Origin: Actinomycetota bacterium
GTDB taxonomy: Bacteria; Actinomycetota; Actinomycetes; Mycobacteriales; JACQDL01
DNA length: 64,000 bases
Assembly: GCA_016201065.1 (NCBI GenBank)
Contig: JACQDL010000035.1
Coordinates: forward strand, 1 to 64,000
Direction: 5' to 3'
Shown here: piece by piece, positions 3,103-20,901 of the stretch
How the letters are laid out: each line of letters opens with the position of its first letter
Position numbering within the stretch: the stretch's first letter is position 1
Notes under the pieces: generated by a model
Databases searched by the model: none
What the model was told of the DNA's origin: nothing
The model's input: only the letters and a program-made list of their open reading frames with translations
Translations under genes and position numbers: made by a program

Positions 3103-4926
3103 ATGGCCGTCATCCCGGACCATCCGCGGGCCGCGGAGGGTGGACAACCGGTCGCCACGCGGATCTTCGAGGCCGTCGACCGGTGGGCACGCGAGGTCCC
3201 CGGAGCGGTCGCCGTCGACGCCCCGGACGGCATCCTCACCTTCGGCGAGCTGCCGGAACGGATCTCGGAGTTCGCGCGGATGCTGGCCGCCTGCGGTGCC
3301 GAACCCGAGGTCGCGGTGGCGTTGTGTCTCGGCAGGTCGTCGCGGGACCTCGTGCCGGCACTGCTGGCGGTGTGGCGGCTCGGCGCCGTTGCCGTACCCG
3401 TTGACGAACGCCACCCCACCGACCGGCTCGCGTTCGTGCTCCGCGACGCCGGGACGCAGCTCATCCTCGGGGACACGCTCCCGCCGGGCGCCGCGCCACC
3501 GGAATCCCGCCAGGTGCCCCCGATCGGTGGCACCGGTGGCCCGGCTGCGACCGCCGCCCGGGGACCGTTGCCGGCTGCCGCGGGCAACTGCGCTTACCTC
3601 ATCTACACCTCGGGCACCACCGGCTGGCCCAAGGGGGTCGAGGTCACCTACCGCAGCCTGGACACCTTCCTCGCGGCGCTCGCCGAACTCCGGCTGACGC
3701 CGGGTGGGATGGGCATCAACGCGGTCTCACCCGCCTTCGATGGTTGGCTGTGGTGCACCCTGCTCTACCTGCTGCACGGGCAGGGGGTGGGGATCGTTGA
3801 CGCCGGTGGGGCGGACGGAGCCGGCGACTTCGTCGAACGTCTCGTCGGGCTGCGCCCTCGGACCGTCTGCCTCACCCCGTCGCTGCTGGTCGCCTGCGCC
3901 GACGACCTTCCGCCGACCGAGGTGCTCGTCGTCGCGGGGGAGGCCTGCCCGCCGGGCCTGCTCCAGCGGTTCACCGGCGACCGGCGGGTCCTCAACGTCT
4001 ACGGTCCGACCGAGGCCACCATCGCGGCGACCTGGGCGGACACCGATCGTGGTGACGACCCGGAGACCATTGGCCACCCGCTGCCGGGCTGCCGCGCCTA
4101 CGTCCTCGACGACGCCCTGGCCCCCGTGCCGGCCGGCAGCCCCGGCGAGCTGTTCCTCGCCGGCCCGTGCCTGGCAGCCGGCTACCGGAACCGTCCCGCC
4201 CTGACCGCGCTGCGGTTCGTCCGCGATCCGTTCAGCGCCGAGGGCGGCCGGATGTACCGTACCGGCGACGTGGTCCGGCAGCGCACCGACGGGGCGCTGG
4301 AGTACGTCGGGCGCCGGGACGACCAGGTCAAGGTCCGTGGCTTCCGGGTCGAGCTGGCGGAACTGGAACGGACGGCGACCCGGATGCCGGAGGTCGTCGC
4401 CGCGGCGGCGTTCGTCGTCGACACCGGCGACGCGCTGGGACTCGCGGTCCGCCCGGCCACACCGGAACCGGACCCGGCGTTCGTGGCCAGGGTTCGGGCG
4501 CACTTCGCCGGATCGCTGCCGGACTACCTGCGGCCGAGCACGGTCCTCGTCACCGGGACGTTCCCCACCCTGGCCACCGGGAAGGTCGACCGGCCGGCAC
4601 TGGCCCGCCTCGCCGCCGGTGTCACGCCGGAACCCGGCCGGCTGCCCGCGACCGCTACCGAGGCGTTGGTCTGCGAGGTGTGGAGCCGGTTGCTGCCGCA
4701 CCCCGTGGCGGACGCCGAGGCCGATTTCTTCGACTCCGGTGGGCACTCGCTGCTCGCCGCGCAGGCCGTCGCCGCGCTGCGCCGCGAGACCGGGACCCGG
4801 GTCTCCATGCAGCACCTGCTGGCCAACCCGACCGCCGCCGGACTGGCCGCCGAACTCGACCGGTTGGCGGCCCGGGCGCCGGCGGACCCACCCGACGTGG
4901 CCCGGACGTTGCCGGTGGGCCGGTGA
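3103..4926 (+). CDS. NRPS A-PCP didomain (amino-acid loading for P450 hydroxylation)
   Basis: Free-standing adenylation-thiolation protein of 607 residues. Adenylation motifs are intact: LIYTSGTTGWPKG (A3, about residue 166), YGPTEATIA (A5), YRTGDVV (A7), GRRDDQVKVRGFRVE (A8) and TGKVDR (A10). The carrier domain at the C-terminus has FFDSGGHSLL. Asp235 (GrsA numbering) is present, so it should take an alpha-amino acid; my by-eye pocket read (D-G-W-L-V-A-V-I-A) matches no code I can name. ATG 3103 has a GAGG ribosome site. It is followed, with a 1-base overlap, by a type II thioesterase and then a P450. That trio, as in NikP1/NikP2/NikQ and NovH/NovI, makes a free beta-hydroxy amino acid. Given the tryptophan halogenase in the cluster, (chloro)tryptophan is the guessed substrate. 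Confidence 0.93.
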   Translation: MAVIPDHPRAAEGGQPVATRIFEAVDRWAREVPGAVAVDAPDGILTFGELPERISEFARMLAACGAEPEVAVALCLGRSSRDLVPALLAVWRLGAVAVPVDERHPTDRLAFVLRDAGTQLILGDTLPPGAAPPESRQVPPIGGTGGPAATAARGPLPAAAGNCAYLIYTSGTTGWPKGVEVTYRSLDTFLAALAELRLTPGGMGINAVSPAFDGWLWCTLLYLLHGQGVGIVDAGGADGAGDFVERLVGLRPRTVCLTPSLLVACADDLPPTEVLVVAGEACPPGLLQRFTGDRRVLNVYGPTEATIAATWADTDRGDDPETIGHPLPGCRAYVLDDALAPVPAGSPGELFLAGPCLAAGYRNRPALTALRFVRDPFSAEGGRMYRTGDVVRQRTDGALEYVGRRDDQVKVRGFRVELAELERTATRMPEVVAAAAFVVDTGDALGLAVRPATPEPDPAFVARVRAHFAGSLPDYLRPSTVLVTGTFPTLATGKVDRPALARLAAGVTPEPGRLPATATEALVCEVWSRLLPHPVADAEADFFDSGGHSLLAAQAVAALRRETGTRVSMQHLLANPTAAGLAAELDRLAARAPADPPDVARTLPVGR

Positions 4927-5708
4927 TGGGGTCCTGGCTGGTGCCGTGGGGGGTGCCGGGTGCCGGCGCCACGGTGCTGGTCTGCCTGCCGCAGGCCGGC
5001 GCCGGCTGCAGGCAGTACCGCGGGTGGCGGGCGCACCTCGACGTCGGCGCCGTGATCGGCGTGCAACTGCCGGGGCGCGAGGAACGGTGGAACGATCCGC
5101 CGGCCGACCGGTTCGACCAGGTCGTCGAGGTCGTGGTCACCGAGCTGGCGGCCATGGTCGCCGACGACGTCCACCTGGTGATCTACGGCCACAGCTTCGG
5201 TGGGCTGATCGGTTACGAGCTGGCCCGGGCCTGGGGGCGCCGGCGTGGCCGGTGGCCCGCGGCCGTCGTCGTCGCTGCCTGCCGGCCACCCGCGCTGTGG
5301 GTGGGTGCGGGGCGGGGGCTGGTCGACGACGAGACCGAACTGGCGGCGCTGCTGGGTGCCCGCGGGCTCGACCCCAAGCTCCTGGACGAGGACAGCCGCG
5401 CCGACCTGATCGAGATCCTGCGGCTGGACGCCCGGCTCTCGCTGTCCTACCGGCCCGGTGACGGCGTCACGGTGCCGTGCCGGTTGGAGGCGTGGGGCGG
5501 CATCGGGGACGAGACGGTGACCTCCGGGCAGCTCGACGGGTGGAGCGGGTACACCACGGGACCGTTCCGGCGGCGTGACCTGCCGGGAGGACACACCTTT
5601 CACAGCACGAGCGCCGGGCCGGCCCTTGCGGCCCTGCGCGATCTTCTCGGCACCGTGGCGTCGCCGCACGGGCCGGCGGGATGCCGACGGGTCGATCCGA
5701 TCGTCTGA
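4926..5708 (+). CDS. Type II thioesterase
   Basis: Alpha/beta hydrolase of the GrsT/RifR type-II thioesterase family, 260 residues, the usual size. The nucleophile elbow GHSFGG lies near residue 90, and a C-terminal GGHTFH supplies the catalytic His. It would hydrolyse acyl groups from carrier domains, either proofreading the NRPSs or, more specifically, releasing the beta-hydroxylated amino acid from the preceding A-PCP protein, as in nikkomycin and glycopeptide clusters. ATG 4926 overlaps the upstream stop (TGATG), indicating translational coupling. Confidence 0.9.
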   Translation: MGSWLVPWGVPGAGATVLVCLPQAGAGCRQYRGWRAHLDVGAVIGVQLPGREERWNDPPADRFDQVVEVVVTELAAMVADDVHLVIYGHSFGGLIGYELARAWGRRRGRWPAAVVVAACRPPALWVGAGRGLVDDETELAALLGARGLDPKLLDEDSRADLIEILRLDARLSLSYRPGDGVTVPCRLEAWGGIGDETVTSGQLDGWSGYTTGPFRRRDLPGGHTFHSTSAGPALAALRDLLGTVASPHGPAGCRRVDPIV

Positions 5709-5739
5709 GCAACCGCCCATCAACGATGGAGGGTGGCCA

Positions 5740-6987
5740 ATGCGCATTGACCTGACCGACGAGACGCTCTTCGCCACCAACGCCTTCGAGCCGGTGTTCG
5801 CCTGGCTGCGGGCCAACGACCCGGTGCACCGGCACGAGGTTCCCGGCGGCGACGGCTTCTGGGTGCTGAGCCGGCATGCCGACATCGCCGCCGTCTACAG
5901 CAACGCCGAGGTGTTCAGCTCGCGGTTCGGAATGAACCTGGGCAGCGATCCGGCCGCCGTCGCGGCGGTGTCGCAGCGCATGTTGATCGTCTCCGACCCG
6001 CCCGACCACACCCAGCTCAAGCGGGTGCTCGCCAGGTCCTTCGCCGCCGACCGGATGCCCATGTTCGAGGCGCTGGTCGGCGATGTCGTCAATGACGTTC
6101 TCGCCGAGGCTGTCGACCGGTGCGCGGACGGTGCCACGGTCGACTTCGTCGACATCGCGAAGGCCGTGCCGAACCGGGTCGTCTGCGCCTTCATGGGCCT
6201 GGACCGGGTGGACTGGGCGTCGGTCGGCCACACCGTGACCGAGGCGTTCGAGGCCGAGGACGAAGCGGTCCGGACCGCGGCGCACGCCGAGATCTTCCTG
6301 CTCTTCGCCGACATGCTCGGCCGGAGGCGGAAGAACCCGGGCACCGACTTCATCAGCGAACTCGCCACGGCGTCCCGCGGGACCGGCGCCCCGGGCCGGC
6401 ACCGGCCCCTCACCGACGAGGAGATCATCTTCAACTGCAACGGTGTCCTCGCAGGCGGGAACGAGACCACGCGGTACTCGGCGGCCGGCGGGCTCCTCGC
6501 GCTGATCCAGAACCCGGCGCAGTGGGCGCAGTTGCGTGCGGGGGGCCCGGCACTGGTCCCCACGGCCGTCGAGGAGATCCTGCGGTGGACCGTCCCCGGC
6601 ATCCATGCGCTGCGGACCGTGACCCGCCCGACCCGCATTCATGACGTCCCACTCGACACTGGCGACCGGGTCACCCTGTGGAACGTCTCGGCGAACCGCG
6701 ACGAGTCCGTGTTCACCGATCCCGACGAGTTCCGGGTTACCCGATCACCCAACCGGCACCTGAGCTTCGGCCAGGGGCGGCACCAGTGCCTGGGTGCGCG
6801 GTTGGCGCGTTTGGAGCTCGCCGTGCTGTTCCGCGGGATCATCGAGCGTTTCGCCGGATTCGACCAGGCCGGTGACCCGGTGTGGAACTCGTCGAACTTC
6901 ACCTGGGGCCTGCGGAGCCTGCCGGTCACGCTGACACCCATCCCCGCAGGTCACCTCTCGTCGCGAAAGGCTCCCAGCCATGGCTGA
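5740..6987 (+). CDS. Cytochrome P450, likely acting on PCP-bound amino acid
   Basis: Soluble class I bacterial P450 of 415 residues. Visible are the I-helix oxygen-binding motif AGGNETT (near residue 238), the K-helix ExxR (EEILRW) and the heme loop FGQGRHQCLG with the thiolate Cys at about residue 350. ATG 5740 follows a GGAGG, giving normal spacing. Position after an A-PCP protein and a type II TE points to beta-hydroxylation of the tethered amino acid (NikQ, NovI and OxyD precedents). Its end overlaps the start of the large NRPS gene by 8 bases. Redox partners are not encoded here. An alternative is oxidation of a thiazoline or the indole later in the pathway. Confidence 0.92.
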   Translation: MRIDLTDETLFATNAFEPVFAWLRANDPVHRHEVPGGDGFWVLSRHADIAAVYSNAEVFSSRFGMNLGSDPAAVAAVSQRMLIVSDPPDHTQLKRVLARSFAADRMPMFEALVGDVVNDVLAEAVDRCADGATVDFVDIAKAVPNRVVCAFMGLDRVDWASVGHTVTEAFEAEDEAVRTAAHAEIFLLFADMLGRRRKNPGTDFISELATASRGTGAPGRHRPLTDEEIIFNCNGVLAGGNETTRYSAAGGLLALIQNPAQWAQLRAGGPALVPTAVEEILRWTVPGIHALRTVTRPTRIHDVPLDTGDRVTLWNVSANRDESVFTDPDEFRVTRSPNRHLSFGQGRHQCLGARLARLELAVLFRGIIERFAGFDQAGDPVWNSSNFTWGLRSLPVTLTPIPAGHLSSRKAPSHG

Positions 6988-9900
6988 GCAGGTCTGCCCA
7001 TCCGCCGTGTTCCTGGACCTGCCGGTGGATTTCGCCCGTGCACCGGAAGCCGCCGCCGCTGCCCAGCTCACCGTCCCGGCGAGGTGCCCGGCGCCGGACG
7101 ACGCCCCGGCGTGGTGGAGCGCCGTACTGGTGACCTTCCTCCACCGGCAGACCGCGAGCACCTCGGTGGGTCTGATCGGCGACGATCTCGGTGACGGCCG
7201 GGTGGCGACCTGCGTGGTGCAGGTGTCGCCGGAGGACACCGTCGACGCGGTGCTGGAGCAGGTGCGGGCCGGCGGCTCCGCCGGCGAGCCCGTTCCCCGG
7301 TCGGCGGTGACGGCCACGACGGCGGGTCCGGTCCGGGTCACCGCGTCGGTTCGTCGCGTCGGCGGTGGTGACGTCGCGGCACCCGGCGACGGCGCCTGCG
7401 CCGACCTGACGCTGCGGGTGAGCGGGGACGGCGCGACCGCCGATCTCGCCGTCGCCGCCGGACTCTGGTCGCCCGACACCGTGCACCGGATGGCCCGCCA
7501 GATCGCCCGGGTCGCCGAGTTCGCGGCCGGCCGGGACGGGACGGGGACGGCCCGCCAGGACACACCGATCCGTGACATCGTCCTGCTCGATCCGCAGGAG
7601 CGTGCCCGGATCGTGGTCGACTGGAACGCCACCGGGACGCGGTGGCCCCCGGGGAGCTACCTCGATCTGCTGGCCGCCTGCGTCGCGCGCGATCCGGAGC
7701 GCCTCGCGGTGTCCGGGGGCGGCCGGACGGTGAACTTCGGGCAGCTCGACCGGGTCACCAACCAGATCGCGCGGCGGCTCCAGCGGATCGGGGCCGCCCC
7801 GGGCACCCGGATCGGCCTGCTGGCGCCGCGGGGTGTGGAATTCGTGATGGCCGCGATCGGTATCCTGAAGACCGGGGCCGCCGCGGTCCTGCTCGACCCC
7901 GCCAACCCCGACCCGCGGCTGGCCTACCTGATCGAGGACAGCGCGCCGATGGCGGTGCTCGCCCCCGCCGCGCTCCGGGAGCGGATCGCCGAGGGGCCGG
8001 CGTTCCTGCCGGTCGACGGCACGGTCTTCGACCGGGAGTCGACCCAGCCGGTTCCCGTGACGATCACCGACGACACGGTCAGCCACCTGATCTACACGTC
8101 GGGTTCGACCGGCGAACCCAAGGCCGTGCTGGAGCGCCACGGCGCCCTGGTCAACCTGGTGCACTGGACCGGGAGGGCCTACGGGGTGCGCGCCGGGGAC
8201 CAGGCCTCGTGGCTGTCCACGCCGGGCTTCGCCGTGCAGCTCATGGAGTGGATGCCGTACCTCGCGCTCGGCGTGACCATCCACATCGGCGACATGGAGG
8301 ACCGCACCCCCGAGCAGATCCGGGACTGGTTGGTCACCGAGGGGATCACCCACACGATGCTCGTAGCCGCGCTGGCCGAACGGGTCTGGACGCTGGCCTG
8401 GCCCGCCGACGCCCGGCTGCGGATCATGGTGACGACGGCCGAACGGGTGCACAGCTGGCCGCCGGCGGACACCGCGTTCCGGGTTGTCATGACCTACGGG
8501 TCGACCGAGACCACGAACGTGCTCACCTGCCTGGATCTCGGCACCGGTCTCGACCTCACCGCCCAGGCCACACCGGACACCGTGCGCTCGGCCCGCCCGG
8601 TGCCGGTGGGACGCCCGATCGCCAACCTGCGGGCGTACCTGCTCGACGACGCCGACCGTCCGGTGCCGGTGGGTGTCGTCGGCCGGTTGCACGTCGCCGG
8701 CGCCGGGCTCGCTGCGGGCTACCACCAGCGGCCGGAGCTCACCGCGGCGCGGTTCCGCCCCAATCCGTTCGCGGAGGAGCCGGCGGTCGTGCTCTACGAC
8801 ACCGGCGATCTCGCCCGCTACCGCGCCGATGGTGCCATCGAGTTGCTGGGTCGGCTCGACGCCCAGGTCAAGATCCGCGGGTTCCGGGTCGAGCTCGGCG
8901 AGGTCGAGTCGGCCGTGCGCGGAGCGCCCAACATCGGCGAGGCGGTGGTGACCACACGCGAGAGCGACGAGGGTGACCTGCAACTCGTCACGCACGTCGC
9001 CCCGGTCCCCGGCCGCCGGATACAACCGGCCGCGCTCCGTGCTCACCTGGCGCAGCGGCTGCCGTACTACATGGTGCCCACGGTGATCATCTGCCTGCGG
9101 GTGCTACCCCGGTTATCCAACGGGAAGGTCGATCTCCGGGGCCTGCCGGCGGAGGGGGACAGCGGGTCCGCCGAACCGGCGGTGGAGCCTGCGGCGCCAC
9201 GCAACGAGGTCGAGGCGGCGCTGCTGTGCGAGTGGTCCCGCCTGTTCCGGCTCGAGCGGATCGGGGTGCACGACAACTTCTTCGATCTCGGCGGTTACTC
9301 GTTGCTGGCCTTCCAGTTCATCGATCACGTCCGGACGGCGTTCGGCGTCGAGACGAGCCTGCCGGATCTCTACCGGTGCCCGACCGTCGCGCAACTCGCC
9401 GAACACGTGGTCGCGAGCCGGGACCGGGGCAGCGCTGGATTCGGCGACCTGCCACCCATCGTCGGGGACCCGGCGCGCCGGCACGACGAGTTCCCGTTGA
9501 CCGACAGCCAGCAGGCACTGTGGATCGGCCGCGGTGACGCCGTCGCCCTCGGCAACGTCGGTTGCCACGGGTATTTCGAATGGGACGGCGATCTCGATCC
9601 GGCGCGGTTCGCCGTAGCCTGGCGGGCCCTGGTGCGGCGGCACGACGCGCTGCGGACGGTCATCGGCCGGGACGGGACACAGCGGGTGCTCAGCGACCCG
9701 CCGGACTACCCGATCCCCGTGCTCGACCTGCGGTCCACGCCGGCTGACGACGCCGAGAAGACCCTGCTCGCGCTCCGGGACCAGCTCTCCCATCAGGTCA
9801 TGGACGACGGTCAGTGGCCGCTGTTCGACGTCCGGATGTCGCTGCTGCCCGACGGGCTGGTGGCGGGCCGGCGCACCCGGCTGCACCTGAGCCTCGACTT

Positions 9901-11605
9901 CCTCATCTCCGACGCGTGGAGCTACTTCCAGGTGCTCGTGCCGGACCTGGTTCACCTCTACGAACACCCCGACGACCCGCTTCCGGAGCTGACGCTGACG
10001 TTCCGCGACTACGTGCTCGGCGTCGGTGCGCGGCTCCCCGACAGCGACATCTACCGGCGGTCGGAGCTGTACTGGCGGGGGCGTCTGGCGTCGCTGCCGC
10101 CGGCGCCGCGCCTGCCGGGCCGGCCGGCAAGCCAGCCGCCGCTCCCGGTCCGGTTCGATCGGTGCGGCGGGCACCTGGACCGTACGGAATGGGCCGAGCT
10201 GCTCGCGCGCGGGAACGAGATCGGGGTGACCGGCAGCGTCCTGCTCGCAGCCGTCTTCGCCGAGGTGCTGCGTTCCTGGAGCGGGCAGCAGCGGTTCACC
10301 ATAAACTTCCCGCTCTTCAACCGGCTGCCCCTGCACCCCGAGGTCCACCGCATCATCGGCGACACGACCACGACCCTGCTGCTCGCGGTCGAGAAGACCG
10401 ACGGGACGTTCACCGACCGGGCGGTCGCGTTGCAGCAGCAACTCTGGGCCGACCTCGAACACCGCTACTTCAGTGGGGTTCAGGTCCTGCGCGAGCTGAC
10501 CAAGCTGCGCGGCACGATGGCGCCGGCGATGCCGATCGTGATGACCAGCCTCGCCGGGCACCCGCCACGCCACCATGCCGCGTCACTCGGCACGGCGACC
10601 TACTCGATCTCGCAGACCCCCCAGGTCGAGATCGATTTCCAGGTGTTCGAGGTCGCCGGCCAGCTCCAGTTCAACTGGGACTTCCTGCCCGCCATCTTCC
10701 CCGATGGGTTCGTCGAGGGGATGTTCGCCGACTACTGCGCCATCCTCGAGCGGCTCCGCCGGGAACCGGACGCCTGGGAGGCCCGGACGCTCACGGTGGG
10801 CGGCGGCACCGGGCACGCCGCCGCCGATCCGGCGGCGCCGGCGCCCGCGTGGTCCCGGTCGGTAGCCGGCGCCGGCGCGGACCTGGCCTGGGAGCGGTTC
10901 TGGTCGGGGGTGCGGAGGACCGGCGCCGACGGCGACGTGCTCTGGGACCCGGACGACCGGGCCGAGATCGAATGGTGTCTGGGGGTCGCGACCGAGCGGA
11001 TGGACCGGTCGCTGCCAGTCGTTGATGTCGGCTGTGGGAACGGCCGGTTCTCGCGGGCCTTCGCGTCCCGTTTCCCGCTGGCGGTCGGCGTGGATGTCTC
11101 ACCGAGCGCGGTGCGCGAAGCCGAGTCGGAGTCGGCCGGGCTGGCGCGGGCGTCGTACCGGGTGCTCGACGCGACGCGGCCGGGGGAGGCGATGGCGCTC
11201 GCCGACGAGATCGGCGACACCAACGTTTTCGTCCGCGGGGTGCTGCACATCCTCGACGACCGGGGGCGGGCCGGGTTCGCCGCCGCGCTGGCGGAACTCG
11301 TCGGCCGGCGGGGGACCGTGCTGCTCGTCGAGCCGATGTACGAGGAGGGATCGTTCGGCTATGTCGGTCAGGTCGGCGGGGCGAAGGGGCGGGCCGCCGA
11401 CCTGGTGGGGCCGCTGGAGCGGGCCGGTGTCGGTGCGTCGGGGCGTTTCGCAGACGCCGAGCGGGCGTGGTTCTTCCCGGCCGGCGCTGGTTGGCGCGCC
11501 GTGGCGAGCGGCACCACCGCGTTGCGGGTGCTCAATCCGGAACACTCCGGGGGCGCCCTCGAGGTACCCGGCTACTTCGCGGTGCTGACCCGGTCGCGGT
11601 GCTGA
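6980..11605 (+). CDS. NRPS: (C remnant)-A-PCP-Cy-methyltransferase
   Basis: 1541 residues. Residues 1-200 look like a C-domain C-lobe remnant without HHxxxDG. The A domain (about 215-725) has HLIYTSGSTGEPK, YGSTETT, YDTGDLA, GRLDAQVKIRGFRVE and SNGKVD. In its A4 region the usual Asp235 reads Ala (GFAVQLMEW), suggesting a substrate without an alpha-amino group. PCP: FFDLGGYSLL (about 770). The condensation-like domain at about 835-1270 is a heterocyclisation (Cy) domain, shown by FPLTDSQQALWIGR, DFLISD (DxxxxD, near residue 973), IGDTTTTLLL, PIVMTSLAG and SQTPQVEIDFQ. A class I SAM methyltransferase (VVDVGCGNGRF, near 1348) ends the protein. There is no further A or PCP, so Cy must work with a partner, most likely the Cys-type A-PCP protein encoded convergently. 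A TTA codon lies at 9113. Confidence 0.93.
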   Translation: MAEQVCPSAVFLDLPVDFARAPEAAAAAQLTVPARCPAPDDAPAWWSAVLVTFLHRQTASTSVGLIGDDLGDGRVATCVVQVSPEDTVDAVLEQVRAGGSAGEPVPRSAVTATTAGPVRVTASVRRVGGGDVAAPGDGACADLTLRVSGDGATADLAVAAGLWSPDTVHRMARQIARVAEFAAGRDGTGTARQDTPIRDIVLLDPQERARIVVDWNATGTRWPPGSYLDLLAACVARDPERLAVSGGGRTVNFGQLDRVTNQIARRLQRIGAAPGTRIGLLAPRGVEFVMAAIGILKTGAAAVLLDPANPDPRLAYLIEDSAPMAVLAPAALRERIAEGPAFLPVDGTVFDRESTQPVPVTITDDTVSHLIYTSGSTGEPKAVLERHGALVNLVHWTGRAYGVRAGDQASWLSTPGFAVQLMEWMPYLALGVTIHIGDMEDRTPEQIRDWLVTEGITHTMLVAALAERVWTLAWPADARLRIMVTTAERVHSWPPADTAFRVVMTYGSTETTNVLTCLDLGTGLDLTAQATPDTVRSARPVPVGRPIANLRAYLLDDADRPVPVGVVGRLHVAGAGLAAGYHQRPELTAARFRPNPFAEEPAVVLYDTGDLARYRADGAIELLGRLDAQVKIRGFRVELGEVESAVRGAPNIGEAVVTTRESDEGDLQLVTHVAPVPGRRIQPAALRAHLAQRLPYYMVPTVIICLRVLPRLSNGKVDLRGLPAEGDSGSAEPAVEPAAPRNEVEAALLCEWSRLFRLERIGVHDNFFDLGGYSLLAFQFIDHVRTAFGVETSLPDLYRCPTVAQLAEHVVASRDRGSAGFGDLPPIVGDPARRHDEFPLTDSQQALWIGRGDAVALGNVGCHGYFEWDGDLDPARFAVAWRALVRRHDALRTVIGRDGTQRVLSDPPDYPIPVLDLRSTPADDAEKTLLALRDQLSHQVMDDGQWPLFDVRMSLLPDGLVAGRRTRLHLSLDFLISDAWSYFQVLVPDLVHLYEHPDDPLPELTLTFRDYVLGVGARLPDSDIYRRSELYWRGRLASLPPAPRLPGRPASQPPLPVRFDRCGGHLDRTEWAELLARGNEIGVTGSVLLAAVFAEVLRSWSGQQRFTINFPLFNRLPLHPEVHRIIGDTTTTLLLAVEKTDGTFTDRAVALQQQLWADLEHRYFSGVQVLRELTKLRGTMAPAMPIVMTSLAGHPPRHHAASLGTATYSISQTPQVEIDFQVFEVAGQLQFNWDFLPAIFPDGFVEGMFADYCAILERLRREPDAWEARTLTVGGGTGHAAADPAAPAPAWSRSVAGAGADLAWERFWSGVRRTGADGDVLWDPDDRAEIEWCLGVATERMDRSLPVVDVGCGNGRFSRAFASRFPLAVGVDVSPSAVREAESESAGLARASYRVLDATRPGEAMALADEIGDTNVFVRGVLHILDDRGRAGFAAALAELVGRRGTVLLVEPMYEEGSFGYVGQVGGAKGRAADLVGPLERAGVGASGRFADAERAWFFPAGAGWRAVASGTTALRVLNPEHSGGALEVPGYFAVLTRSRC

Positions 11606-11658: not shown

Positions 11659-11743
11659 CGATGGGGCACGACTGGGTCGGGCCGGACGGCGCCGTGCCGT
11701 CGGGATCACGGGGGTCCCGCGCCGACGCCGTCCGGTGGCGCGG

Positions 11744-14365
11744 TCAGTTCGGTGGCGCGATCAGGTCGGCGAGGCGATCCGCGGCGGTCACGGCCCGCGG
11801 GTCCTGGCCGAGCACGGCCGCGAGGTCGGTGACGACGGGATTGTCGAACACGACCCGCAGGGGCAGGTCCACGCCGATGAGCTCGTGCAGGTGGCGGACG
11901 AGGCGGATGCCACGAAGCGAGTCCCCGCCGAGCCGGAAGAAGTTGTCGGTCCGCCGCACATCGTCCAGGCCGAGCACGTCGGCGACCGCCGCGGCCACGA
12001 GGCTCTCCAACGCGGTCTCCGGGATCTCGTCCGCGCTCTCCACCGGGTCGACGTGCTCGCCGGCCGGCCGCCGCGCCCCCGCCGGCTCGGCGCCGCGCGC
12101 GAAGGCGGCGATGTCGCCGCCGGCACGTCCGGTGAGAACCAACCGGTCGACCTTTCCGTTGCGGGTCAGCGGGAGTGCGTCGAGGAGGGTGATCGCCGAG
12201 GGGACCATGTACCGCGGGAGGACGGCGCGCAGGTGCTCGTGGAGCTGGTCGCCGTCGGCCACAGCGCCGGGACGGAGCGTGACGAATCCGTGCAGCCGCC
12301 GCCCGCCGCCCGAGCCGGCCCTGGGCGCGATCACCACGGCGTGGTCGACCGCCGGGTGCTCACGCAGCGCCGCCTCGATCTCACCGAGCTCGATCCGGTA
12401 TCCCTGGATCTTGATCTGGAAGTCGATCCGGCCCAGGATCTCGATGTTGCCGTCCGGCAGCGAGCGCCCGCGGTCGCCGGTGAGGTAGGCACGCTCCCCG
12501 GTCTCGGGCAGCGTGACGAACTGCGCCGCGGTGCGCTCCTCGTCGTCCCAGTAGCCCAGGGCCAGCCCGATGTCGCTGGCCACCGCCATCTGGCCCGGCA
12601 CATGGACCGGGCGTTGGTACCACTCCTCGTCAACGATGTAGTACCGCTGGTTGCTGATGGGCTTGCCGTAGGGGATGCTCGTCCACCCGGGATCGACGGC
12701 GCCGATCGGGTAGAACACCGACCAGCAGATCGTCTCGGTCGGTCCACCGGAGCCGACGACCGAGATCCCGGGCGCCTGCGTACGCAGCCGATCGGGCAGC
12801 GTGAGCGGGATCCAGTCACCTGACAGGACCGCCAACCGTACGGAGGACAGCGGTGCGTCGGTACGGATCTCGGCCTGCCCGACGATCATCTCCATCAGCG
12901 CGGGGACGGAGTTCCACAGGGTCACCGACTCGGCGGCGATGAGGTCGACCCACCGGTCGGGCTGCGCGCGCTCGAAGTGGTCCGGCAGCACCACCGCGGC
13001 GCCGGCCGCCAGCACGCCGAAGACATCATAGATCGACGCGTCGAAATGAAGGCCGGAAATGGCGAGCAGCCGATCGTCGGGTCCGATCCCGAACCGCTCG
13101 TTGACGTCGAGGACGAGGTTCACCACGCCGCGGTGGTCGACGGTGACCCCTTTCGGTTCGCCGGTCGAACCCGAGGTCCAGATGACGTAGGCGGGATCGG
13201 TCGGCCCCTGGAGCGCGGGCAACGGGCCGTCGTCGCCGGACTCGAAGTCGGTGTCGACACAGTGCCGGACGATGTCGTCCGGCCAGGTCAGGCGGGTGTC
13301 GAGCGATGCCTGGGTGAGCACGTGGCGCACCCGGCCGCGACGTAGCAGCCGCTCCAGCCGGGCGGGCGGTACGGAGGCGTCGATGGGCAGGTAGGCGGCA
13401 CCGGCGGTGAGGACGCCATAGACCGCGGCGTATTGCTCCCACCCCTTCTCCATGACGATCGCGACCAGCTCGCCGACCCGTACGGTGGGCGCCGGGCCGG
13501 CGCCGCGGAGTCGGCGGCCGATCCGGTTCGCGTAGCCGACGAGCTCGGCGTAGCTGAGCCTGCGGCGGGCGTCGATGACCGCCTCCGCGTCGGGGTTGCG
13601 GCGCGCCGCCGACGCGAGGAGTTCGTGGAGCAGGACGGCGGGCACCTCCGCCGCCGTCGCGTTGATCTCGCCGAGGAGCGTGCGGTCGGCGGCCGGGACG
13701 AGGTCGAAGCGGCGGCGCTGCCAGTTCCGGGGGTCGGCACCCAGGGTCCCGAGCAGGCTCCGGTAGCTGTCGCCGGCCGCCGCGAGGAGCTGGTCGGGAA
13801 TGGCCCCGGCCGCCGTGTCCCAGGTCATGGTGAGGCCCTCACCGGCCGCCACGAACGTGACCTCCAGCAGCGACGCTGGGTCTTCCGGAACGGTCGTGCC
13901 GTCCGGCCGGACCCCACCGATCACGACGGGGCAGGGCGGCGCGGCGCGGCGGTGCGCCGTGGCGTCGCGGACCTGGTCGCTGATCGCGACGGCCCGCTGC
14001 GCGAAGGTACCGTCGCCGCGCTCGGCGACCACGACCGCCAGATCGCCGTCGGACCCGGAGCCCGTCACGAGCCGGATACCCAGGGTGAACGTCGGTTCCG
14101 CGGACCAGGCCCGAATCACCTCGGCGAAGGCCGCATGCAGGGCCGCGTCCAGGGTCACCCCGGCCTTCAGCGCCTGCCCGGCCAGTGCGCGGGTGTCCGG
14201 CGGCGGCAGGGTCAGCGTGCGCCGGGCGCGCGGTCGCGGACCAGCGGCGGCGGTCCGCAGCGGAAGCTCCGGCGGGCGCACCTCATCCTCCGGTCGGGAT
14301 CGCGTCTCGGTGCCGGCGTCGTGCGACGGTTCCGGGCTGGGCTGGATGTGTGCGAGTCCGGTCAT
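11744..14365 (-). CDS. NRPS: (Cy/C remnant)-A-PCP, cysteine-type
   Basis: 873 residues. Residues 55-235 resemble the C-terminal lobe of a condensation/Cy domain lacking the catalytic N-lobe. The A domain (about 260-760) has WTSGSTGEPKG, GGPTETICW, YLTGDRG, GRIDFQIKIQGYRIELGE and RNGKVDR. LHFDASIYDVFGVL, LWNSVPAL and LSGDWIP are typical of cysteine-activating domains in pyochelin/yersiniabactin-type synthetases; pocket residues read about D-A-Y-N-V-S-x-C-W against the Cys code DLYNLSLIW. The PCP is near the C-terminus (FFRLGGDSLRG). ATG 14365 has a GGAG six bases upstream. It would supply cysteinyl-PCP to the Cy domain of the convergent gene to build a thiazoline. Cys is the best guess, Ser or Thr less likely. 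Confidence 0.92.
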   Translation of the reverse strand: MTGLAHIQPSPEPSHDAGTETRSRPEDEVRPPELPLRTAAAGPRPRARRTLTLPPPDTRALAGQALKAGVTLDAALHAAFAEVIRAWSAEPTFTLGIRLVTGSGSDGDLAVVVAERGDGTFAQRAVAISDQVRDATAHRRAAPPCPVVIGGVRPDGTTVPEDPASLLEVTFVAAGEGLTMTWDTAAGAIPDQLLAAAGDSYRSLLGTLGADPRNWQRRRFDLVPAADRTLLGEINATAAEVPAVLLHELLASAARRNPDAEAVIDARRRLSYAELVGYANRIGRRLRGAGPAPTVRVGELVAIVMEKGWEQYAAVYGVLTAGAAYLPIDASVPPARLERLLRRGRVRHVLTQASLDTRLTWPDDIVRHCVDTDFESGDDGPLPALQGPTDPAYVIWTSGSTGEPKGVTVDHRGVVNLVLDVNERFGIGPDDRLLAISGLHFDASIYDVFGVLAAGAAVVLPDHFERAQPDRWVDLIAAESVTLWNSVPALMEMIVGQAEIRTDAPLSSVRLAVLSGDWIPLTLPDRLRTQAPGISVVGSGGPTETICWSVFYPIGAVDPGWTSIPYGKPISNQRYYIVDEEWYQRPVHVPGQMAVASDIGLALGYWDDEERTAAQFVTLPETGERAYLTGDRGRSLPDGNIEILGRIDFQIKIQGYRIELGEIEAALREHPAVDHAVVIAPRAGSGGGRRLHGFVTLRPGAVADGDQLHEHLRAVLPRYMVPSAITLLDALPLTRNGKVDRLVLTGRAGGDIAAFARGAEPAGARRPAGEHVDPVESADEIPETALESLVAAAVADVLGLDDVRRTDNFFRLGGDSLRGIRLVRHLHELIGVDLPLRVVFDNPVVTDLAAVLGQDPRAVTAADRLADLIAPPN

Positions 14366-14523: not shown

Positions 14524-14552
14524 CCGGCACGGCAGACCCCGCGGCCGGGCAG

Positions 14553-14570
14553 ATAACTGCCGGCTAACCA
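14553..14570 (+). promoter_or_regulatory. Candidate SARP box upstream of ALDH operon
   Basis: ATAACTG (14553-14559) and CTAACCA (14564-14570) start 11 bp apart, about 110 bp before the ALDH start and in the orientation of that gene. Together with the adjacent triple repeat facing the other way, the divergent region appears to hold one operator per direction. Confidence 0.5.
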
Positions 14571-14680
14571 CGCGCTCGTAGCGTCAGCGCCGGTGCCTCC
14601 GCAGCGACGCCCACCACGGCCATGCTCACCGCGGCACCGCACGTCACGGCACCCGCCCTCGGCCAAGACAGGTGTGGCAG

Positions 14681-16165
14681 ATGACAAGTACCTCATCGTC
14701 GAAGAGGTTCGATGTCCAGTGGATCGACGGGCAGTGGACGCCGTCAAGCGCGGACGACGGGATCACGGTTGTCAACCCGACCGACGAACAGGTGATCGCC
14801 GAGGTCCCCGCCGGCACGCGCGGCGACGTCGATCGGGCCGTCGCCGCGGCGCGCCGCGCATCCGAACGGTGGGCCGGCACGCCGCTCACCGAACGGCTGG
14901 CGTTCCTGGAGCGCCTCGTCGGGCGGCTGACCACGCGGTCGGAGGAATTCGCCAACGACATCGTGGCCGAGGTGGGGGCGCCGCTCGCGGTGGCCCGGCA
15001 GGCCCAGGTGGGGTTGGCGATCGCGCTGGCGGCGTCCTATCTGGACATCGGCCGGGAGTTCGGCTACGAACGCCGCGTCGGGAACTCCCGTGTCGTGCGG
15101 GAACCCGTCGGGGTGGTGGCCACGATCACGCCGTGGAACGTGCCGCTGCTGCTGACCTTGCAGAAGATCGTCCCGGCACTCGTCGCCGGCTGCACGGTCG
15201 TCCACAAACCCAGCGAGGTCACACCGCTCTACTCGTACCTGCTCGCCGAGGTCGTCGCCGAGTGCGACCTTCCGGCCGGCGTGTTCAACATGGTGGTCGG
15301 CACGGGACCGGAGGTCGGCGCGGAGCTCGCCCGGCACCCCGGCGTCGACCTGATCTCGCTGACCGGATCGACCCGGGCGGGCCGGGACGTGATCCGCAAC
15401 AGCGCGGACACCGTCAAGCGGGTGCACCTGGAACTCGGAGGCAAGAACGCGAGCGTCGTGCTCGACGACGCCGACCTCGATCGCGCGGTCCGTGCGACGG
15501 TCGACCAGGCGTGTTTCAACACCGGACAGACCTGCTTGCAGTGGAGCAGGTTGCTGGTGCCGCGCGACAGGGCCGGCGCTGCCGCGCGGATCGCGGCCGA
15601 GGTCGCGGCGACCTACCGGATCGGCGATCCCCGGCTGGACACCACCGACCTGGGTCCGCTGGTCTCGGCGGCCGCGCTGGAGCGGGTCACCGGATACATC
15701 CGTAGCGGCATTGAGGAGGGCGCCGAGCTCGTCGCCGGCGGTGCCGGGCGACCGGCTGGCACCGAGTGCGGCTACTTCGTCGAACCCACGATCTTTGCGG
15801 GGGTCGACCCCGCCATGACCGTGGCCCGGGCCGAGATCTTCGGTCCGGTGATCTCGATCATGCCCTACGACACCACGGACGATGCGATCCGCATCGCCAA
15901 CGACACCGACTACGGCCTGCACGGTGCCGTGTGGTCGGGCAGCGACGACCACGCCCGGCAGGTCGCGCGGCGCATCCGCACCGGGGTGATCGACATCAAC
16001 GGTGGCACGTTCAACATCGCCGCGCCGTTCGGTGGCGTCAAACAGTCCGGATACGGACGCGAGTGCGGCGTTGAGGGCCTCGACGGGTTCCTGGAGACCA
16101 AATCCATCCAGGAACCGGCGACCGGGCCGGAGGTCACCGGACCGCGCCTGCGCGAGACGTCGTGA
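14681..16165 (+). CDS. NAD(P)-dependent aldehyde dehydrogenase
   Basis: Aldehyde dehydrogenase superfamily member of 494 residues, full length. The Rossmann and active-site features are present: TPWNVPLLL, GSTRAG (cofactor loop), the general base Glu in LELGGKN, the nucleophile Cys in NTGQTC, and the EIFGPV motif. ATG 14681 is preferred; a GTG nine bases upstream is also possible and neither has a strong ribosome site. It heads an operon with the tryptophan halogenase and flavin reductase. If the hydroxylated amino acid made by the A-PCP/P450 pair undergoes retro-aldol cleavage, this enzyme could oxidise the resulting indole carbaldehyde to a carboxylic acid. That role is inference; a general housekeeping ALDH role cannot be excluded. 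Confidence 0.92.
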   Translation: MTSTSSSKRFDVQWIDGQWTPSSADDGITVVNPTDEQVIAEVPAGTRGDVDRAVAAARRASERWAGTPLTERLAFLERLVGRLTTRSEEFANDIVAEVGAPLAVARQAQVGLAIALAASYLDIGREFGYERRVGNSRVVREPVGVVATITPWNVPLLLTLQKIVPALVAGCTVVHKPSEVTPLYSYLLAEVVAECDLPAGVFNMVVGTGPEVGAELARHPGVDLISLTGSTRAGRDVIRNSADTVKRVHLELGGKNASVVLDDADLDRAVRATVDQACFNTGQTCLQWSRLLVPRDRAGAAARIAAEVAATYRIGDPRLDTTDLGPLVSAAALERVTGYIRSGIEEGAELVAGGAGRPAGTECGYFVEPTIFAGVDPAMTVARAEIFGPVISIMPYDTTDDAIRIANDTDYGLHGAVWSGSDDHARQVARRIRTGVIDINGGTFNIAAPFGGVKQSGYGRECGVEGLDGFLETKSIQEPATGPEVTGPRLRETS

Positions 16166-16255
16166 CGCCGCAGCGACCTGGCGGGCCGTGGACCGGCGCC
16201 GCCATCGGGCAGGGAAGGCCGCAGGACACCACGGCGTACGACCGTAAGGAGCGAC

Positions 16256-17848
16256 ATGGACAACCGGATTGAGCGGGTCGTCGTCCTCGGCGGGGGGACC
16301 GCCGGGTGGATGACCGCCTCCTACCTGGGAAAGGCGCTGCAGCGCACCGTGGAGATCACGGTTCTCGAGGCGCCGAACGTGCCGCGAATCGGTGTTGGCG
16401 AGGCGACCGTCCCGAACCTGCAACGGGCGTTCTTCGGCTATCTGGGAATCGAGGAAGAAGACTGGATGAGGGAATGCAACGCGAGCTACAAGCTCGCGGT
16501 GAAGTTCGTCAACTGGAGAACGCCCGGCCGGGGGCAGCCGACTGCGCGCGACTACAACGGCCGTCCCGACCACTTCTACCACCCGTTCGGTCTGCTGCCG
16601 GTCTACGACAACATCCCGCTCTCGCACTACTGGATGTACAAGCACGCGCACGGGCAGACCGACGAGGCGTTCGACTACGCGTGCTACAAGGAACCCGCGA
16701 TCATGGATGCGAAGCTCGCGCCACGCAGGAGCGACGGAACCCAGGTCGCGTACTACGCATGGCATTTCGACGCCGCACTGGTCGCGGACTACCTACGCAG
16801 GTTCGCGGTCACCAAGCAAGGGGCGGTTCACATACAGGACACCCTGACCGAGGTCCTCAGGGACGGGCGTGGGTTCATCACCGGACTCCGTACGGAAACC
16901 GGTCGCCTCATCGAGGGTGACCTTTTCGTCGATTGTTCCGGGTTCCGGGGGCTGCTCATAAACAAGGCGATGGAGGAGCCGTTCATCGACATGAGCGACC
17001 ACCTCCTGTGTGACAGTGCGGTCGCCGCGCGGGTGCCGCACGACGATGCCGCGAACGGTGTGGAGCCGTACACCTCGTCCATCGCGATGAGCTCGGGCTG
17101 GACGTGGAAGATTCCCATGTTGTCCCGTTTCGGCACTGGCTACGTCTATTCCAGCCAGTTTGTGGATCGGGACGACGCGACGGAGGAGTTCTGCTCGCTC
17201 TGGGGGCTCGATCCCGCCGCTACGGACCTCAACCATATCCGCTTCCGGGTGGGACGGAACAGGCGTGCGTGGGTGAAGAACTGCGTGAGCATCGGCCTCG
17301 CCTCCTGCTTCGTGGAGCCGCTTGAGTCGACAGGCATCTACTTCATCTACGGTGCGATCCACCAACTCGCGAAACATTTTCCTGACGCTCGTTTCGACCC
17401 CGGTGTCATCGATGCGTTCAACCGTGAGATCGAATTCATGTTCGACGACACGCGAGACTTCTTGCAGGCGCATTTCTATTTTTCGCCGCGCACGGACACC
17501 CCCTTCTGGCGCGCGAACAAGGAGCTCACCCTTTCACCGCAAATCCGGGAGAAGGTCGCGACGTATCGCGCGGGACTCCCGGTGAATCCCCCAATCAGCG
17601 ATGAGAACGGGTACTACGGGAATTTCGACACGGAGTTCCGCAACTTCTGGACCAACGGCAGCTACTACTGCATTCTGGCCGGGATGGGGCTGGTGCCGGA
17701 CTCGGCGCTCCCCGTGCTCTCCTACAAGCCTCACTCGATCGACGGTGCCGAGCATGTCTTCGGTGACGTCAAGCGGGCACGGGACGAGCTGCTCGGCACG
17801 TTGCCCTCGACGTATGACTATCTGCGCGTGCTGCACGGCACCGGGTGA
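16256..17848 (+). CDS. FAD-dependent tryptophan halogenase (PrnA-like)
   Basis: 530 residues, the usual length. It shows GGGTAGW for FAD binding at the N-terminus, the catalytic Lys in VKFVNW (Lys83), the halogenase signature WTWKIP (Trp282-Trp284), and EPLESTG with the catalytic Glu357 and Ser358. Long stretches recall PrnA (for example [27 protein letters not shown] and the [11 protein letters not shown] region), placing it with free-tryptophan 6/7-halogenases rather than PyrH-type 5-halogenases or phenol/pyrrole halogenases. It uses FADH2, O2 and chloride or bromide; the FADH2 is supplied by the reductase gene that overlaps its stop codon. GGAG precedes ATG 16256. Chlorination position (7 likeliest) is inferred only from resemblance. 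Confidence 0.96.
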
Positions 17849-18438
17849 GTGGTGTCGTGGTGGGCACATCTCGGGCCGATGACACCTTCCCGGAGCCCGC
17901 CGCGCCGATCTGGGAATACAGGGACTTCATGAGTTCGTTCCCGACCGGTGTCGCGGTGGTGACGAGTCTGGACACGGCGGGTGAGCCACAGGGAATGACC
18001 TGTACCTCGCTGCTCAGCGTCACGCTCCGGCCGCCCACCCTGCTGGTGAGCCTCCGTCACGGGAGCGCCACGTTGGCCGCGGTGATCGCTCGTGGGGTGT
18101 TTTCCGTGAACCTGCTGCACGCCGGCGCCCGGGAGATCGCCGAGCTGTTCTCGCGTCCGGTCGAGAGCAGGTTCTCCCGAGTGTCATGGCGACTGTCGGC
18201 GCACGGTGCGCCGTGGCTCGTGGATGCGGCGCTCGGGGTCGCCGACTGTTCCGTCGTGGGTGCCACGGACGTGCGTGATCACCGTTTGGTCTTCGGTGAG
18301 GTGCGGCACGTGTCCGTGTGCGAGAGCGACGCGTTGCTCTATGGACGCCGGCGGTTCGGTTCGTGGGCGGTGCCGGCCCCGGACGTCGGCGGCCGGTCGA
18401 CGAGCGGGACGGGGTCGGCCGGGACCTCGCCGCGCTGA
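17845..18438 (+). CDS. Flavin reductase, halogenase partner
   Basis: 197-residue protein of the FMN-binding split-barrel flavin reductase family (PrnF/HpaC type). Typical segments are [29 protein letters not shown] and FSVNLL, then a conserved region about [18 protein letters not shown] 17845 overlaps the halogenase stop (GTGA), so it is coupled to the halogenase, to which it delivers FADH2. The last 25 residues are a low-complexity tail with no counterpart in the family. Confidence 0.92.
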
Positions 18439-19033
18439 GTCCCGACGGCCGGCCGCGACACTCCTCACAGGAAGATCGGATTCCCGGACGACAGGCCCAG
18501 GTCCGGTCGGCACCGTGGCGTCCGGACGGGACCTGATGACGTGGAGGGCGGTGACGCGTTTGTTGCGTCACATCCTCGGATGTCCGAATAGGTATGACTG
18601 CGTGTGGAATCTGACTGTCATACCCTTGCCTTAACCCCAATCGGGTGATAGTGTTCGAAAAGCGGATCAAGCGTGATTGATGCGAGCGGGCGTGCGGCCC
18701 TCGGGCGAATTTATATTTCGATCGAAAATAGGACCATGCTTCGCGGCGTGTCGGTCCGCGGCGACGAACGTGAATCGTGGCAAGGGTAGCGTGGTGAACT
18801 CTGCGGGCGACGACAGGGAGTTCTAATGAAACGACGCCGCTGACATCTTGATGCTGCTGTCGATCGCTGCCACCAGATCACGTGATAGCGGTCTGGCTGT
18901 TTGGCTCATGTTTCCACGCCGATCTGGCAGCGTGCACGGACCGTGCTGATGACTAACATGCTGTGGTGCCGGCTTTTCTGGCCGGACAACACGCTGTTGC
19001 GAGAGAAATCGAACCAGCGGTACGGAGGCCCAA
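18439..19033. other. 595-bp gene-free regulatory gap before SARP gene
   Basis: No gene longer than a few codons is supported here. Base composition drops locally (for example the TTTATATTTCG stretch near 18710). A perfect 12-bp palindrome TTTCGATCGAAA lies at 18716-18727. The gap probably holds the SARP gene promoter and the end of the halogenase transcript; the long spacing suggests the regulator is controlled separately. Confidence 0.55.
18716..18727. promoter_or_regulatory. 12-bp palindrome upstream of SARP gene
   Basis: TTTCGATCGAAA is perfectly self-complementary and sits in the most AT-rich part of the window, about 300 bp before the SARP start. It could be an operator for a dimeric repressor controlling the pathway activator. 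No regulator for it is identifiable here. Confidence 0.35.
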
Positions 19034-19864
19034 TTGAGCAGTACGTCGGTCGACTGTCTCGGGAGATTTTCACTTCGGATGGACGGCAATGTGGTCGAAC
19101 GCTGGCGGGCCGGTCGGGCTCGTTGCCTATTTCAATATCTTCTGGTGAACCGGAACCGCATCGTGCCGAAGGATCGGTTACGCGAAGTGTTGTGGCCGCA
19201 TGCGACATGGTCCAGTGAATCGTCCTCGCTCAAAGTCGCGGTACATGCGTTGCGGCAGGTGTTGGCGTCGCAGAAGGGATTCTCCGGGCAGCGGCTCGAG
19301 GTCATCTATCAGGATTTCGGCTACCTGCTCCGGGTGGACAACGATGTCTGGATCGACTTCTGCGAGTTTGAGTCGGCGGTGGACCGGGCACGCGTCGCCG
19401 AACTGCGGGGCGACGTCGCGGGAGCCGTCGAGGCGTATGACCGTGCGGTCGCGCTCTACCGCGGTGACTTCCTGATCGGGGAGACCGCCGACTGGGTCAC
19501 CGAACAGCGGGAATGGTTGCGTGGAGCCGCGCTGAGGGCGCGGTCGTGCCTGGCGGAATACGAGCTCGTCCGTGGCAACGACGGTCAGGCGCTGCACCAT
19601 TGCAGGGCGAGCCTTGAGATCGATCCGTGTCGCGAGGAGATTTATGAGATCGTGATGTTGATCCACGCCGGACGCGGCGAACTGATCCAGGTCCGACGCT
19701 GGTACGAGCTTTGCGTGCAGCGGCTGCGGACACTCCTGGATGCGAGCCCGTCACCCGCGCTCACGCGGCTGCTCGACGATGCCCAGTGTGGCCGGTACCG
19801 TGGCGAGAAAGAACTCTCCGCGCGATTGGGTGGCGGGGACGGCCTGGCCTGGAGCCGTGATTGA
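19034..19864 (+). CDS. SARP-family pathway activator (HTH + BTAD)
   Basis: 276-residue regulator with an OmpR-like winged helix (about 8-90; CLGRFSLRMDG, then LREVLWP and LKVAVHALRQVL) followed by a bacterial transcriptional activation domain (about 95-250; FCEFESAVDRARVAELRG, then CREEIYEIVMLIHAGRG). That is the architecture of Streptomyces antibiotic regulatory proteins without ATPase domains. TTG 19034 is chosen because GGAGG (19024-19028) sits five bases upstream. A TTA leucine codon at 19178 (codon 49) suggests bldA-dependent translation. SARPs bind direct repeats with 11-bp spacing, exactly the pattern found before the NRPS genes here. The stop overlaps the start of the KAS III-like gene. 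Confidence 0.88.
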   Translation: MSSTSVDCLGRFSLRMDGNVVERWRAGRARCLFQYLLVNRNRIVPKDRLREVLWPHATWSSESSSLKVAVHALRQVLASQKGFSGQRLEVIYQDFGYLLRVDNDVWIDFCEFESAVDRARVAELRGDVAGAVEAYDRAVALYRGDFLIGETADWVTEQREWLRGAALRARSCLAEYELVRGNDGQALHHCRASLEIDPCREEIYEIVMLIHAGRGELIQVRRWYELCVQRLRTLLDASPSPALTRLLDDAQCGRYRGEKELSARLGGGDGLAWSRD

Positions 19865-20901
19865 GATTCTATGAGCGGCTCAGCGTCGTGGCCGCCGAGA
19901 CCTGGCTACCAGCAACGGTTGAAACGGTGACCGAGGCGGTCGCCCGGGGTGCGCTGCCGGAGGCCGAGAGCGAGCGGGTGGGGGTGGAGAGCCTTCCGGT
20001 GGCGACGGAGGCGCCACCGGAGCTCGCCGTGCACGCCGGTCGCTTGGCGTTGTCGCGAGGTGCCCGGCCGGCTGCGAGCATCGGTCTGGTCGTACATTCC
20101 TGGCTTCACTACCAGGGCCATGACATGTGGTCACCGGCGCATTTCGTCGCGGCGCAGCTCGGGCTGGACCGGGCCGAGGCGTTCGGCGTGTTCCAGATGT
20201 CGAACGGCGGCGCGGCGGCGATTCAGGTCGCGGCGGCCCGGCTGCTCGCCGACCCGAGTCCGGTCCGGGCGCTCGTCACCACCGGGGATCGGTTCGGCGA
20301 CGAGGGATTCGACCGGTGGCGGGGTGACTACGGGTTGTGTTACGGCGACGGCGGGACCGCAGTGCTGCTCGAGCGCACCGATGACGCGGGGGATCTGGCC
20401 CGGGACGGCGACCTTCTCGCGGTCGGCATGGCCACGGCGCCGCGTCTTGAGGTGGTGCACCGGGGCGGTGACCCGTTCCAGCCTGCGGCCCGCACCCTCA
20501 GCCCGCGGGTCGACTTCCGACGGCCGATCAGAGGATACCTGGAACGGTGTGGCGACGCGGAACTTGCCACGATCTCCCGGGCGAAGGTCGCCGAGGCGGT
20601 CCGGGTCGCGCTGGCCGACGCCGGCTTGGACGAACGGGACGACCGGATCACCCTGGTGATCCCGCCACGGATGAATCCCAGGGTGCTCGACGAGGTCTAC
20701 CGTCCGGTGCTCGCCGCGATGCTGCCGCAGGCCACACTCGTTGATGGGGGCACCCGAACCGGGCACCTCGGTGCGGGTGATGTGCCCGCCGGCATCGCGG
20801 ACCTGTGCTCCGGCGCCATGCTGGCCCCCGGCGAGATCGGGGCCGTGGTGGGTGTCGGCGGTGGTTTCAGCTGGTCCTGCGCCGTGTTCCGGTCGGTCTG
20901 A
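19861..20901 (+). CDS. KAS III-like acyltransferase with Ser-His-Asp triad
   Basis: 346-residue thiolase-fold protein of the FabH-like family. The nucleophile site reads QMSNGG, so Ser114 replaces the Cys of ketosynthases. The FabH HQAN and NTSAAS motifs are absent, and GHLGAGD gives His302 and Asp307 spaced five residues apart, as in the Ser-His-Asp triad of DpsC and the Cys-His-Asp triad of CerJ. It is therefore more likely an acyl transferase (carrier or CoA to O/N) than a decarboxylating condensing enzyme. TTG 19861 overlaps the SARP stop. It may acylate the NRPS product or load the carrier domain of the convergent PCP-C-A protein. Confidence 0.85.
   Translation: MRFYERLSVVAAETWLPATVETVTEAVARGALPEAESERVGVESLPVATEAPPELAVHAGRLALSRGARPAASIGLVVHSWLHYQGHDMWSPAHFVAAQLGLDRAEAFGVFQMSNGGAAAIQVAAARLLADPSPVRALVTTGDRFGDEGFDRWRGDYGLCYGDGGTAVLLERTDDAGDLARDGDLLAVGMATAPRLEVVHRGGDPFQPAARTLSPRVDFRRPIRGYLERCGDAELATISRAKVAEAVRVALADAGLDERDDRITLVIPPRMNPRVLDEVYRPVLAAMLPQATLVDGGTRTGHLGAGDVPAGIADLCSGAMLAPGEIGAVVGVGGGFSWSCAVFRSV

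Follow-up and report, generated by a model that had tools for sequence, protein, structure and literature searches.

We analysed the first 64,000 bases of a 70,960-base contig of an Actinomycetota bacterium (JACQDL010000035.1, our contig C59), hereafter the window. Base 1 of the window is the contig end. A biosynthetic gene cluster spanning 278-24117 was delimited by annotation of the window proteins with hidden Markov model (HMM) and PDB searches, the source of all domain assignments given here. Judged from its sequence, this cluster is probably related to the JBIR-34/35 (fmo) and tambromycin clusters, though reduced and rearranged, and probably builds a chloroindolyl-(4-methyl)oxazoline. A chlorinated indole acid combined with a methyloxazoline is already known from these two products (PMC9040887), and the window cluster is a variant on that theme. 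The source genome comprises 3.65 Mb in 65 contigs and is the single representative of its family in the comparison set.

The ring-forming half of the predicted pathway was assessed via the third adenylation domain (A3), which is followed by a peptidyl carrier protein (PCP) domain. The best PDB match of A3-PCP was FmoA3 (6LTA, 762 bits), with the next match at 562 bits, versus 384 and 322 bits for the cysteine-activating BmdB and PchE. FmoA3, from JBIR-34/35 biosynthesis, activates alpha-methyl-L-serine, and mutagenesis has shown that A688, N730 and S760 read the side chain (PMC11253843). Adenylation pockets were compared by alignment across the window, Planomonospora, Dactylosporangium and FmoA3, with the last two columns read by eye; the numbers printed in the 6LTA chain equal the published FmoA3 numbers plus 16. 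A3 has the same residues as FmoA3 at these three positions and at every other pocket position that was compared (D-A-Y-N-V-S-S-C-W, with Ala at position 236). Because A3 has the whole pocket of an alpha-methyl-L-serine activator, the ring is predicted to be a 4-methyloxazoline, not a thiazoline. The cluster genes are as follows, with A for adenylation, C for condensation and Cy for heterocyclization domains.

278..1765, minus strand: DHA2-type MFS efflux transporter, a possible exporter (PF07690; LmrA/EmrB-like NCBIfam matches)
1989..3044, plus strand: LysR-family regulator (PF00126, PF03466)
3103..4926, plus strand: free-standing A-PCP (A1) with Trp or chloro-Trp as predicted substrate (HMM; pocket D-G-W-C-V-A-V-I-A)
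4926..5708, plus strand: type II thioesterase (TE) of the RifR type, predicted to release the beta-hydroxy amino acid (PF00975; RifR the best PDB match)
5737..6987, plus strand: P450sky/OxyD-like cytochrome P450, the predicted beta-hydroxylase of PCP-bound (chloro)Trp (PDB 4l0e, 3mgx)
6980..11605, plus strand: nonribosomal peptide synthetase (NRPS) of 1541 residues with C remnant, A2, PCP, Cy and C-terminal methyltransferase (MT) (HMM; A2 with Ala at 235; Cy motif DFLISDAWS)
11744..14365, minus strand: half-Cy (C-terminal part), A3 and PCP, a predicted FmoA3-type alpha-methyl-L-serine activator (FmoA3, 6LTA, the best PDB match)
14672..16165, plus strand: aldehyde dehydrogenase (ALDH), predicted to oxidise a chloroindole aldehyde to the acid (PF00171)
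16256..17848, plus strand: flavin-dependent tryptophan halogenase of the Thal/RebH clade, probably a Trp 6-halogenase (PF04820; Thal the best PDB match)
17845..18438, plus strand: flavin reductase for the halogenase (PF01613; homologue in the Dactylosporangium cassette)
19034..19864, plus strand: SARP-family activator (PF03704; the Planomonospora cluster SARP is 47% identical)
19861..20901, plus strand: KASIII-like acyltransferase of the DpsC/CerJ group with a Ser nucleophile, predicted to transfer an acyl group from a PCP (DpsC the best PDB match)
20911..24117, minus strand: PCP-C-A protein with a degenerate A domain (PF00550, PF00668, PF00501)

A first-pass annotation of this DNA had named a tryptophan halogenase, an A-PCP/TE/P450 trio, an ALDH and a Cy domain, and all of these enzyme classes were recovered by the HMM and PDB searches. 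Its parts list was incomplete in that the C-terminal MT of the NRPS, the SARP and the nature of the KASIII-like protein were overlooked. It ended the cluster at position 20901, so the PCP-C-A protein directly beyond was missed, as was the contig end at the window start.

The same annotation had taken A3-PCP for a Cys-type protein and let the pathway finish with cysteine and a thiazoline. Tyr239, Asn278, Ser301 and Trp331 of A3 do also occur in typical cysteine-activating domains, whose usual code is DLYNLSLIW. Cy domains commonly act on cysteine, and a clustered serine hydroxymethyltransferase (SHMT) to provide alpha-methylserine is absent. However, position 236 holds the Ala of FmoA3 (A688, which the alpha-methyl group needs) and not the Leu usual for cysteine, the remaining compared pocket residues are also those of FmoA3, and BmdB and PchE reach about half of the FmoA3 bit score or less. 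Activation of cysteine by A3, with a chloroindolyl-thiazoline as the product, is therefore very unlikely, and the second half of the earlier pathway is contradicted. A literature search for chloroindole-thiazoline returned nothing relevant.

The Cy domain expected to form the predicted methyloxazoline lies in the upstream NRPS. Its DxxxxD motif is intact, and its nearest match is the Cy domain of FmoA3. Whereas FmoA3 is a single Cy-A-PCP protein, in the window the preceding A-PCP carries the whole Cy as a fusion, and all that the A3 protein has of a Cy domain is its second half. Planomonospora has the same arrangement.

The proposed route starts with the halogenase and flavin reductase, which would convert tryptophan to (6-)chlorotryptophan. 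A1-PCP would load this amino acid, the P450 would hydroxylate its C-beta and the TE would free beta-hydroxychlorotryptophan. Retro-aldol cleavage, probably by the housekeeping SHMT GlyA or a threonine aldolase encoded elsewhere, would give chloroindole-3-carbaldehyde and glycine, and the ALDH would oxidise the aldehyde to chloroindole-3-carboxylic acid. A2 would load the acid on its own PCP, where the MT may N- or O-methylate the indole. A3-PCP would then load alpha-methyl-L-serine (or serine), with the upstream Cy condensing and cyclising the two into a chloroindolyl-(4-methyl)oxazoline thioester. Finally, the acyl unit may be handed to an acceptor by the KASIII-like acyltransferase, by the PCP-C-A protein through its C domain, or by both.

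Thal, a tryptophan 6-halogenase, was the best PDB match of the halogenase (913 bits), followed by BorH (as which we take entry 6ul2, listed solely as a tryptophan 6-halogenase), RebH and PrnA. Five positions presumably set 6- versus 7-chlorination in Thal and RebH. Aligned by eye, the window halogenase has the Thal residue at four of them and Thr at the fifth, which makes chlorination at position 6, and with it 6-chlorotryptophan as the product, likely. The best matches of the P450 among natural enzymes were PDB 4l0e and 3mgx, which we take to be P450sky and OxyD; both are beta-hydroxylases of PCP-bound amino acids. The stand-alone A-PCP, type II TE and P450 of this kind are the components of an A-PCP/P450/TE cassette. 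The NovH/NovI, NikP1/NikQ and P450sky cassettes have the three-enzyme arrangement and the kind of P450 in common with the window, whereas the window product is predicted to be cleaved to an aryl aldehyde and then oxidised.

The A2 pocket (A-V-M-M-V-T-T-N-V) has Ala in place of Asp235, as the first-pass annotation had claimed for one A domain. Since Asp235 binds the alpha-amino group, A2 should refuse alpha-amino acids. The MT domain had CyaF as best PDB match, which we take to be an indole N-methyltransferase, a tailoring enzyme. The indole block of tambromycin is N-methylated, 4-oxygenated and C3-acylated (PMC7067857). Taken together, the CyaF match and the N-methylated tambromycin indole make methylation of the PCP-bound indole the likeliest role of this domain.

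A core of six proteins (halogenase, A1-PCP, TE, P450, ALDH and A2-PCP) recurs in Planomonospora parontospora and Dactylosporangium vinaceum. The A1 and A2 pockets are identical in the window and both relatives. Identity to the relatives is 66-70% for the halogenase, 61-62% for the P450 and 56-65% for the ALDH. In P. parontospora JCM 3093 the large NRPS has a full-length relative (61%); its relative in D. vinaceum is shorter. Conservation of the core in three genera, together with the known JBIR-34/35 and tambromycin chemistry, supports the half of the earlier pathway that leads from tryptophan via chlorotryptophan to the chloroindole acid, here as its PCP-bound acyl form.

Several points weigh against the assignment of the cluster as a chloroindolyl-methyloxazoline pathway. 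The A1 pocket, predicted to take Trp or chloro-Trp, was paired with no characterised tryptophan-activating domain. A hydroxylase acting on indole C4 was not seen. A search of the window for a clustered aldolase or SHMT with Planomonospora genes as queries gave no match. The source genome has one SHMT only, on contig C64, which is GlyA-like (73% identical to Planomonospora GlyA), so that a synthase dedicated to alpha-methylserine was not seen, nor was a dedicated aldolase, other aldolase families lying outside the search. The release route and the acceptor are without assignment. Cluster genes are perhaps missing, as the contig ends at base 1 of the window. Finally, the likeness to fmo and tambromycin was drawn from the FmoA3 structure and the literature, not from those gene sets.

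The first-pass annotation had fairly singled out the aldolase step as its weak point. The Dactylosporangium chromosome, which is complete, has no SHMT near its chloroindole cassette either. As far as these searches reach, the retro-aldol enzyme is thus encoded beside the gene set in neither genome. SHMTs cleave phenylserine-type substrates without folate, which makes GlyA the first candidate. Planomonospora has four SHMTs, one of which adjoins NRPS genes and is 45-49% identical to two of the others and 30% to the third. In the fmo cluster, the SHMT FmoH makes alpha-methylserine; by analogy, the clustered Planomonospora enzyme would do the same.

The absence of an FmoH-like SHMT could be accounted for if A3 took L-serine, giving an unmethylated oxazoline, or if the MT domain supplied the alpha-methyl group. 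The single housekeeping SHMT of the genome and the position of the MT directly after Cy are in line with this. A3 nevertheless retains the Ala by which FmoA3 accommodates the alpha-methyl group, the best match of the MT is the presumed indole N-methyltransferase CyaF, and Planomonospora has the MT plus an extra SHMT, so the MT is no replacement there. We consider this alternative unlikely.

Acyl transfer and release were considered for the last two proteins of the cluster. The KASIII-like protein shares 41.5% identity with DpsC. Aligned with DpsC, it keeps the Ser nucleophile and the HRGG and GHLGAGD motifs, which hold what we take to be the two catalytic His and the Asp of DpsC; its Dactylosporangium counterpart has Cys in place of the Ser. 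The PCP Ser and the C-domain HHxxxD motif of the PCP-C-A protein are intact, and its A domain has an altered A3 core motif, no Asp235 and a replaced catalytic Lys. We infer that one or both of these proteins transfer the acyl unit to an acceptor. The only NRPS extension capacity on the contig is this PCP-C-A protein with its degenerate A domain, and the contig ends beside the cluster. Contigs C6, C20 and C27 carry other C domains of the genome, and C20 also has its only MbtH gene. Completion of the cluster from other contigs was considered and rejected, as the C20 and C27 C domains were merely generically similar to Planomonospora NRPS genes. The three AlkZ-like genes of the genome above the cut-off are all on contigs other than that of the cluster; the one on C20 was rejected as a missing cluster part because it was not the closest to the Planomonospora AlkZ-like gene.

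The degenerate A domain, the half-domains in two proteins, the contig end at window position 1 and the absence of an SHMT, an AlkZ-like gene and later modules from the contig could alternatively mark what is left of a full fmo-like cluster after decay or truncation, with no finished product made. This is improbable given that the core reading frames are all open with strong third-position GC bias, that the core enzymes retain their catalytic residues and that Planomonospora has the same split Cy arrangement.

The remainder of the window contains a separate biosynthetic locus (38799-53740) with a 3-amino-4-hydroxybenzoate synthase pair (BagB/FevI-like aldolase, 41252-42139, and BagC/FevH-like protein, 40119-41258), a stand-alone C-domain protein, a GMC oxidoreductase, a SIS protein, epimerases and glycosyltransferases. 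Within this locus, at 46791-49475, an AMP-binding enzyme is fused in an unusual way to galactose-1-phosphate uridylyltransferase (GalT-type nucleotidyltransferase) domains. A single-chain acetyl-CoA carboxylase-like protein of 1860 residues (26326-31908) has biotin carboxylase, biotin carrier and carboxyltransferase domains. A DDE transposase remnant with a local GC drop to 0.60 (32858-36000) lies between the two biosynthetic loci.

Across 198 evenly sampled genomes of the class, the window gene was the only FmoA3-like gene, and a search of plasmids for NRPS relatives found none with >60% identity. Among the closest systems is the cluster of P. parontospora JCM 3093, which lies on two contigs and encodes A2-PCP-Cy-MT (61%), half-Cy-A3-PCP (56-58%) and halogenase (70%) homologues as well as the P450, TE, A1-PCP, ALDH and SARP. 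Unlike the window, it also includes the clustered SHMT, MbtH, AlkZ-like, C-A-PCP, C-A-PCP-TE and acyl-CoA dehydrogenase-like genes; its flavin reductase belongs to another family, and counterparts of the KASIII-like and PCP-C-A proteins were not found in it. It appears as a fuller JBIR-34/35-like cluster, with MbtH beside a partial A domain in one frame, two further NRPS genes and an AlkZ-like DNA glycosylase.

The D. vinaceum NRRL B-16297 locus has the order KASIII, A2-PCP, ALDH, flavin reductase, A1-PCP, TE, P450, halogenase. It lacks Cy, MT and A3 and adjoins modular type I polyketide synthase (PKS) and glycosyltransferase genes. As A2-PCP occurs there without Cy, MT and A3, the chloroindole part forms a separate unit, and the core most likely ends at a chloroindole acyl-PCP usable on different scaffolds. 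The EryCIII-like glycosyltransferases and PKS beside this cassette suggest a glycosylated polyketide with a chloroindole acyl group. Comparison with the two genera thus separates the chloroindole-acid gene set from the oxazoline gene set, and provides a short, testable list of enzymes for the conversion of tryptophan to chloroindole-3-carboxylate and its attachment to different scaffolds. A bolder proposal, which we make with considerable doubt, is that the pathway to chloroindole-3-carboxyl-PCP serves as a portable acyl-donor cassette and that, in the window, the Ser-type KASIII and the PCP-C-(dead A) protein put the chloroindolyl-methyloxazoline acyl group on a non-peptide acceptor, replacing the JBIR-34/35 tetrapeptide.

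AlkZ-like proteins are encoded in both the JBIR-34/35 and tambromycin clusters (PMC9040887). Neither such a gene, nor an FmoH-like SHMT, nor further C-A-PCP modules of the fmo kind were found on the window contig, and the genome has no FmoH-like SHMT. Tambromycin (MIBiG BGC0001368), likened here by the literature description of its chlorinated indole and methyloxazoline, also holds a lysine-derived pyrrolidine amino acid, genes for which were not seen in the window. With the fmo cluster of Streptomyces sp. Sp080513GE-23, the window cluster has in common the chlorinated indole acyl unit (here predicted), the FmoA3-type pocket and the relatedness of Cy, albeit on a different protein, and its halogenase is of the Thal/RebH clade. 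Muliandi and colleagues reportedly found in 2014 that the fmo cluster accumulates 6-chloro-4-hydroxyindole-3-carboxylic acid once fmoA3 is removed. Since some features of the JBIR-34/35-tambromycin type are present and the SHMT and AlkZ-like genes are absent, we describe the cluster as working like that type, not as a full member, and as extending chemistry known from Streptomyces to a rare actinobacterium.

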